Shown one piece after another: positions 13,723 through 14,172 of a stretch of DNA of 64,000 nucleotides. The stretch spans positions 248,001-312,000 of the forward strand of contig NZ_QFFK01000008.1 in the NCBI RefSeq assembly GCF_003149455.1, given 5' to 3'. Numbering within the stretch: the first letter of the stretch is position 1; each line of letters opens with the position of its first letter. The DNA comes from Chitinophaga deserti. GTDB lineage: Bacteria; Bacteroidota; Bacteroidia; Chitinophagales; Chitinophagaceae. Below the pieces are notes generated by a model. The model saw nothing but the letters and a program-made list of their open reading frames with translations. It searched no databases and had not been told where the DNA came from. Both the position numbers and the translations under genes were made by a program.

Positions 13723-13901
13723 ATAGGTAGCTATTTTGTGATTGCTGCTTATATGACGGACAAATCGCCCCTTCCCCCATAAGCCCCCTCAAATATTTTT
13801 TCTGAACGAAACTGAATAGTTGATTATCAGAATGAACAGAATGAACAGGATGAATACAGGTAAATTGAACTCACATCTATTCTGACTAAAACCTACAAAC
13901 T

Positions 13902-14108
13902 ATGGAAAACAAGTATTTCGGCTGCGAGCCGCTTGGCATGGAAGACATGCAGAATGTTCAGGGCGGTGCTTATGTAGCTAACCTCCTGACCCTCGTTAAA
14001 GGCGCTTATTTCCTGACAAAGAATTTCACACCCAACGTGCCCCTGGCCGGCCCGCTGGTATTTGGGTTGCTGACCTCGTTTGTGGACCCGCTGGTAACAG
14101 CAGCGTAG
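13902..14108 (+). CDS. Double-glycine leader peptide, bacteriocin/RiPP-precursor-like
   Basis: This 68-residue peptide begins MENKYFGCEPLGMEDMQNVQGG. The stretch LGMEDMQNVQGG matches the double-glycine leaders that are cut by C39-type peptidase ABC transporters, in which hydrophobic residues at -4, -7 and -12 precede GG. The following core of about 46 residues is hydrophobic and rich in Gly/Pro/Leu, with no cysteine. It is followed at once by a very strong terminator, so it is a dedicated short transcript. No transporter, maturase or immunity gene is visible nearby. Direct repeats of GAATGAACA precede it (about 13831-13855). A role as exported signal or bacteriocin is inference. Confidence 0.7.
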   Translation: MENKYFGCEPLGMEDMQNVQGGAYVANLLTLVKGAYFLTKNFTPNVPLAGPLVFGLLTSFVDPLVTAA

Positions 14109-14134
14109 TACACAGGCATTTCACACCGATTTTC

Positions 14135-14172
14135 GATAAGCAACCTGCGCAAGCAGGTTGCTTATCTCTTTT
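14135..14172 (+). terminator. Strong terminator of the GG-leader peptide gene
   Basis: A perfect 14-bp stem (14135-14148 with 14153-14166) capped by a GCAA tetraloop and followed by TCTTTT. It may also serve the convergent kinase gene ending at 14187. Confidence 0.9.

Follow-up and report, generated by a model that had tools for sequence, protein, structure and literature searches.

The locus at positions 13902 to 14166 of the window (the whole stretch of 64,000 nucleotides of Chitinophaga deserti DNA that was analysed, part of contig C22) raises the question of how a double-glycine (GG) leader peptide leaves the cell, and to what end, when no exporter gene adjoins its own. The gene lies on the plus strand at 13902..14108, stop included, running from an ATG to a TAG at 14106-14108, and encodes a precursor of 68 aa. 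The original prediction had described an N-terminal leader ending in GG followed by a hydrophobic core of 46 residues, and both are borne out. The leader (13902..13967, plus strand), MENKYFGCEPLGMEDMQNVQGG, is 22 aa long, bears the FGC signature, and ends in G21-G22, after which a cut by a C39 peptidase is predicted. The mature core (13968..14105, plus strand), which begins with AYVANLL and has a GRAVY of 0.98 and a net charge of +1 over its 46 aa, contains no Cys, the sole Cys of the precursor being in the leader. Two helices are predicted in the core with low confidence, AlphaFold gave no confident model of the peptide (mean pLDDT 52.5), and comparison with Pfam and NCBIfam returned no family up to E 10. 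The 64-kb window has 279 ORFs of 40-140 aa that start with ATG, and of these the gene alone follows a GG rule that also restricts the residues at -4, -7, and -12.

The gene has a minus-strand gene on each side, a protein gene upstream and a convergent deoxynucleoside-kinase-like gene downstream (both named by eye), and thus forms a single-gene unit, as the predicted short transcription unit of its own would have it. The 14-bp, GCAA-capped terminator was likewise correctly foreseen: an intrinsic terminator hairpin occupies 14135..14166 on the plus strand, with a 14-bp stem, a GCAA loop, and a T-rich stretch after it. The 34-mer 14134-14167 folds at -25.4 kcal/mol and is followed directly by CTTTTAT. 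A stable hairpin follows the stop codon in 16 of 16 window-type genes, with differing stem sequences and energies of -18.6 to -31.7 kcal/mol, those in the orthologues each being the best of many windows and taken without a shuffle control. Upstream, TAAATTG at 13861..13867 (plus strand) is a weak candidate for the -7 promoter box, judged against the Bacteroidota -7 consensus; its TA..TT column is conserved in the orthologue alignment. The immediate neighbours, all on the opposite strand, resemble housekeeping genes, and no immunity gene was recognised among them, immunity proteins being a group without a reliable signature.

The window gene is present at E<1e-10 in 16 of 79 Chitinophaga genomes, this one counted, weak matches above E 0.01 being treated as chance. 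Fifteen copies are intact and one is frameshifted, in genome G064, where the neighbouring genes are also broken up and completeness is given as 65%. The nearest named record, C. pinensis isolate 3, has a peptide 99% identical to that of the window. Flanking gene order is the same in all 15 other genomes with the gene. Homologues keep the cut site, a test set with the original prediction, GG being invariant in 17 of 17 aligned relatives, and omega is 0.02-0.15 in 10 of 11 orthologue pairs, the eleventh pair being saturated. The gene is under purifying selection. Given the same-locus homologues in 15 other genomes, the invariant GG, and the low omega, the ORF is a real gene.

The leader is the feature by which the gene can be tied to others. 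Aligned leaders share the pattern M....(F/Y/L)GC..L........GG. The docking residues of the window leader are V19 (-4), M16 (-7), L11 (-12), and Cys8 (-15), at the positions (-4/-7/-12/-15) named for docking on C39-peptidase ABC exporters (PCATs) in PMC7018657. Cys at -15 is constant in the FGC leaders listed; exceptions at the docking positions are Q, A, or S at -7 in some relatives and T at -4 in one leader on contig C12. A leader-only search with the single sequence found itself alone, and the sister peptides were found by the family profile and the leader profile. The latter, covering 25 positions, has hits below E 1e-6 in 22 of the 79 genomes, these being partly by construction in those genomes (G000, G005, G021, G049, G055, and others) that contributed rows to it as profile A2, and G008 and G032 give weak, partial matches. 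Outside the genus, no FGC leader was found at E<=0.01 in the 394 family genomes drawn, and matches occur in one of 101 genera.

In this genome the leader profile finds three genes, that of the window and the two members of a tandem pair on contig C12 (G000:C12:488980-489407; L125:9531-10108, minus strand). The pair encodes peptides of 93 and 74 aa with the FGC leader and Gly-rich cores, and an xthA-like gene lies on one side of it in 20 of 20 other genomes examined. The codon pattern GC[EQK][ED][LF], outside which the window leader (GCEPL) falls, occurs at 20 places in the genome, and the GG leaders among these are the two of the C12 pair only. A third GG peptide, on contig C1 (G000:C1:913543-913755; L319, minus strand), was located via a search for the tight form of the TGAAC element described below. 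It has a different leader, MHTNNFLTLSTEDMRLIAGG, and a hydrophilic, Pro-rich core, and relatives of it occur in 8 of 79 Chitinophaga genomes. The search of the genome for further GG-leader peptides, named as a check when the locus was first described, was productive. The label of orphan given to the window gene holds in that no exporter gene adjoins it and fails in that unlinked genes carry the same leader and upstream element.

The upstream alignment of the orthologues falls on a repeated TGAAC. Two direct repeats of this type lie upstream of the window gene on the plus strand, a distal pair, TGAAC-N5-TGAAT, at 13803..13817 and a proximal repeat, TGAACAGAATGAACAGGATGAAT, at 13833..13855 with three half-sites in 9-bp steps; two TGAAC pairs, about 28-30 bp apart, are also seen in several orthologues. 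Taken as TGAA(C/T)-N4/5-TGAA(C/T) within 250 bp upstream on the same strand, the element precedes GG-peptide genes at unlinked loci in 46 of 48 cases (16/16 window-type genes, 22/24 other FGC-leader genes, and 8/8 relatives of the third peptide on C1), a tally in which the orthologues are non-independent and for which the element was defined after inspection of the first two gene sets. The background is 3/564 ORFs of at least 150 aa on the same strand and 23/564 on either strand, many of the latter being divergent neighbours of a peptide gene. Dinucleotide shuffles gave means of 0.12, 0.18, and 0.07 genes for the three sets and never more than 2. Among peptides beside PCATs, 3/16 have the element on either strand. 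Half of the six closest copies in this genome (C4:145990, C12:22926, and C12:23184) have no GG peptide after them. Because the TGAAC repeat is common to unlinked peptide genes, co-regulation is probable, and the genes that carry it are probably switched on together. The tandem N4/5 form was not visible by eye before the HlyD-PCAT genes at the peptide-less loci described below, so co-regulation with the exporter is unsupported. At G000:C12:22926-23197 (L261, L262), TGAACAAAATGAAC occurs twice in exact form, at a spacing of about 260 bp, ahead of a 399-aa ORF that has a secretion-like N-terminus and is not a GG peptide.

A genome search for C39-peptidase ABC exporters, the other check attached to the original prediction, returned three Peptidase_C39 matches, one on contig C8 and two on contig C1. 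None is in the 64-kb window or elsewhere on its contig, C22, and the expected lack of nearby processing genes is thus confirmed for C39. The C8 match is a PCAT (G000:C8:63842-66016) with a HlyD-type ORF directly before it; it scores above the cut-off of TIGR01193 (peptide cleavage/export), and no GG peptide was found near it in the 20 kb examined. On C1 the matches are to a PCAT with its own HlyD-like ORF and, weakly, to a non-PCAT protein. Both belong to a natural-product-like cluster (L042:15941 to L043:7822, G000:C1), in which the weakly matching protein is without the DCG-type Cys and whose precursor (L042:17744-18010) is an 88-aa, Cys-rich GG peptide with a leader other than FGC.

PCATs of the C8 type are present in 32 of 79 genomes (E<=1e-120, with 14 candidates scored per genome). 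They can be divided into two kinds. The first, beside which no GG peptide was seen, is found in 22 genomes, the stretch examined being 5 kb either side in most and ending about 1 kb after the PCAT in G072. One survey took 13 of these 22 loci and a scripted survey all 22. From the scripted survey, seven hits within smpB and a 22-aa hit in G064 were dropped as false; it also missed three peptides of G023 that the other survey shows. The second kind, with GG peptides alongside, is found in 10 other genomes, and G021 and G046 have both kinds. Relatives of RNase H, SmpB, or AccD flank the peptide-less PCATs and lie beside none of the 10 others. A strict C39 motif pattern is matched by 25 of 36 related PCATs; in the other 11, Cys, His, and DP are retained as judged by eye. 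Related PCATs elsewhere in the genus (L107-L112, L187-L194) have one to four varied GG peptides alongside. One peptide beside a related PCAT resembles PF10439 weakly (E 0.0044, below cut-off).

The 22 genomes with the FGC leader are the same 22 that have the peptide-less C8-type PCAT. A strong leader match is found in 0 of the remaining 57 genomes (Fisher p 5e-20, a value that ignores shared descent), the leader being absent from 10/10 genomes with solely peptide-flanked C8-type PCATs and from 47/47 without a PCAT match at E<=1e-120. With C39 exporters in the genome and the GG site kept in the homologues, neither of the two conditions set to refute the original prediction holds. The proposal that the window peptide is exported by a remote transporter is strengthened, since across the 79 genomes the orphan PCAT and HlyD pair on C8 goes with the leader type. 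An SppA tree that covers 76 of these genomes (G053, G068, and G077 left out) gives the FGC state one change, with support of 100/98, so the co-occurrence of leader and PCAT counts as one historical event kept through the radiation, not 22. Genome G007, inside the clade, lacks the window gene at its syntenic place, keeps the PCAT, and has a C12-type pair. The peptide-less state takes two changes on the PCAT tree, and the state of a PCAT with peptides alongside takes seven on the SppA tree, a patchy spread that would fit mobile clusters.

The window peptide is probably one of several dispersed and co-regulated GG peptides that share a single remote PCAT as their exporter, with a core most likely acting on the membranes of competitors. 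The window gene would give a GG-leader precursor, of which V19, M16, L11, and Cys8 would dock on the C39 domain of the C8 PCAT. Cleavage would take place after G22, and the 46-aa core would exit via the C8 PCAT-HlyD pair and an outer-membrane channel. The same PCAT probably also serves the Gly-rich C12 pair, which has the same FGC leader, and perhaps the hydrophilic C1 peptide, which has the same upstream element and another leader. Once released, the core would act on competitor membranes much as unmodified class II bacteriocins or microcins do; the main alternative is that it serves in signalling or at the surface. A wider reading, to which belief and doubt are given in equal measure, is that of a secreted peptide regulon in part of Chitinophaga. 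Three or more GG-peptide families at unlinked loci, their cores unrelated (hydrophobic, Gly-rich, and hydrophilic), would share one TGAAC direct-repeat operator and leave the cell as a mixture through a single stand-alone PCAT that lost or never had its own peptides, in contrast to the mobile-looking PCAT clusters that keep theirs. The case also hints at a path by which mobile bacteriocin-like clusters could become a fixed secretion system of the core genome. Leader signature, upstream element, and genome-wide co-occurrence point together to one exporter, and the peptides it would serve are of a sort that escapes cluster-based mining.

Comparison with known systems bears on what the core may do. 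Its GG leader end, its docking residues, and the C39 exporter in the genome place the window peptide among double-glycine peptides; of the marks of a class II bacteriocin or microcin, an exporter gene in the same cluster and a curated family match are missing. It stands as a candidate class II bacteriocin. Class II microcins such as colicin V and E492 combine a hydrophobic or Gly-rich core and a GG leader with a PCAT and a HlyD-type adaptor in a Gram-negative cell. The exporter and immunity genes of colicin V and E492 sit in one cluster, whereas none of these was recognised beside the window gene. Prochlorosins and synechococsins have GG-type leaders. As described in PMC10783134, their precursor genes can likewise be scattered and rely on one common enzyme set, but they are lanthipeptides modified by LanM; here no such enzyme is evident beside the gene and the core has no Cys. 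The pneumococcal ComAB, BlpAB, and RtgAB systems, described in PMC7018657, share with the present one the GG leader with residues at -4/-7/-12/-15, a C39-ABC exporter, and specificity by leader type. They differ in that the host here is Gram-negative, a HlyD adaptor is present, the precursor genes are unlinked to the exporter, and Cys stands at -15 in place of a large hydrophobic residue. PMC7018657 treats the matching of orphan GG peptides to exporters as an open problem. Bacteroidetocins of the Bacteroidales, as described in PMC6671954, are also GG peptides of Bacteroidota with a core of about 42-46 aa, a C39 ABC transporter, and no immunity gene found. Their leader is 15-16 aa as against 22 aa, they contain at least two Cys where the window core has none, and genes for a TM protein, a thiol-oxidoreductase, and a transporter adjoin them, unlike the window gene. 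A bacteroidetocin was ruled out on leader length, the lack of core Cys, and the differing neighbours, and a TIGR04149 rSAM-modified GG-Bacteroidales precursor by the absence of a model match for the window peptide; the precursor of the C1 cluster matches TIGR04149 weakly (E 0.014, below cut-off). The window and sister peptide families have no curated model match above cut-off. GG peptides, PCATs, orphan GG peptides, and scattered precursors are already known. In the open-access literature, no report was found of GG peptides in Chitinophaga or of orphan GG peptides in Bacteroidota, nor of a stand-alone exporter in Bacteroidota whose peptides share both their leader signature and their upstream element.

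Antibacterial action of the core, judged a little short of evenly balanced, is favoured because of the bacteriocin-type export (TIGR01193) and the weak PF10439 similarity beside a related PCAT. Signalling and surface roles retain some weight because of the strong conservation, the lack of a recognised immunity gene, and the kinase-like gene at the C12 pair. That gene is central to the best of the alternatives, itself unlikely, in which the GG peptides are pheromones and a histidine-kinase-like protein is their receptor or a part of their circuit. A 671-aa ORF, by eye a TPR histidine kinase, lies divergent from the C12 pair, and a relative adjoins the pair on the side away from xthA in 17/20 other genomes examined; the upstream element common to unlinked peptides and the strongly conserved core would also agree with a signal. 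Against it, the kinase is missing beside the pair in 3/20 genomes, no receptor lies next to the window gene, and the cores are long and hydrophobic or Gly-rich. Less likely again is a role as structural or surface material, for biofilm, as a surfactant, or in gliding, the peptides then being neither weapons nor signals. Vertical inheritance at a fixed locus, strong purifying selection, and the Gly/Leu-rich sister cores are consistent with such material, but the similarity of peptides beside related PCATs to class II bacteriocins, weak and below cut-off as it is, argues against it.

That the exporter is the PCAT of the C1 natural-product cluster and not that of C8 is improbable. The C39 match of the C1 PCAT is intact (114.5 bits) and an adaptor gene accompanies it, and two PCATs, ComAB and BlpAB, are known to share substrates (PMC7018657). 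However, the C1 cluster has a precursor of its own without the FGC signature, and no TGAAC pair was found on the 20-kb stretch L042 of that cluster, while the C8 PCAT has no peptide nearby and, across the genus, goes with the FGC leader. A chance reading frame or decayed remnant, which the shortness of the ORF, the empty Pfam and NCBIfam searches, its absence at the syntenic place in G007, and the frameshift in G064 might suggest, was rejected as most improbable on the 15 intact copies among 79 genomes, the fixed synteny, the low omega, the conserved upstream element, the hairpin in every window-type gene, and the uniqueness under the GG rule in the window, with the G064 frameshift itself weakened by the broken neighbours and incompleteness of that genome. 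In G056 (L015:1501-2035), the window-type gene is directly followed by a second FGC-leader peptide of 77 aa with another core.
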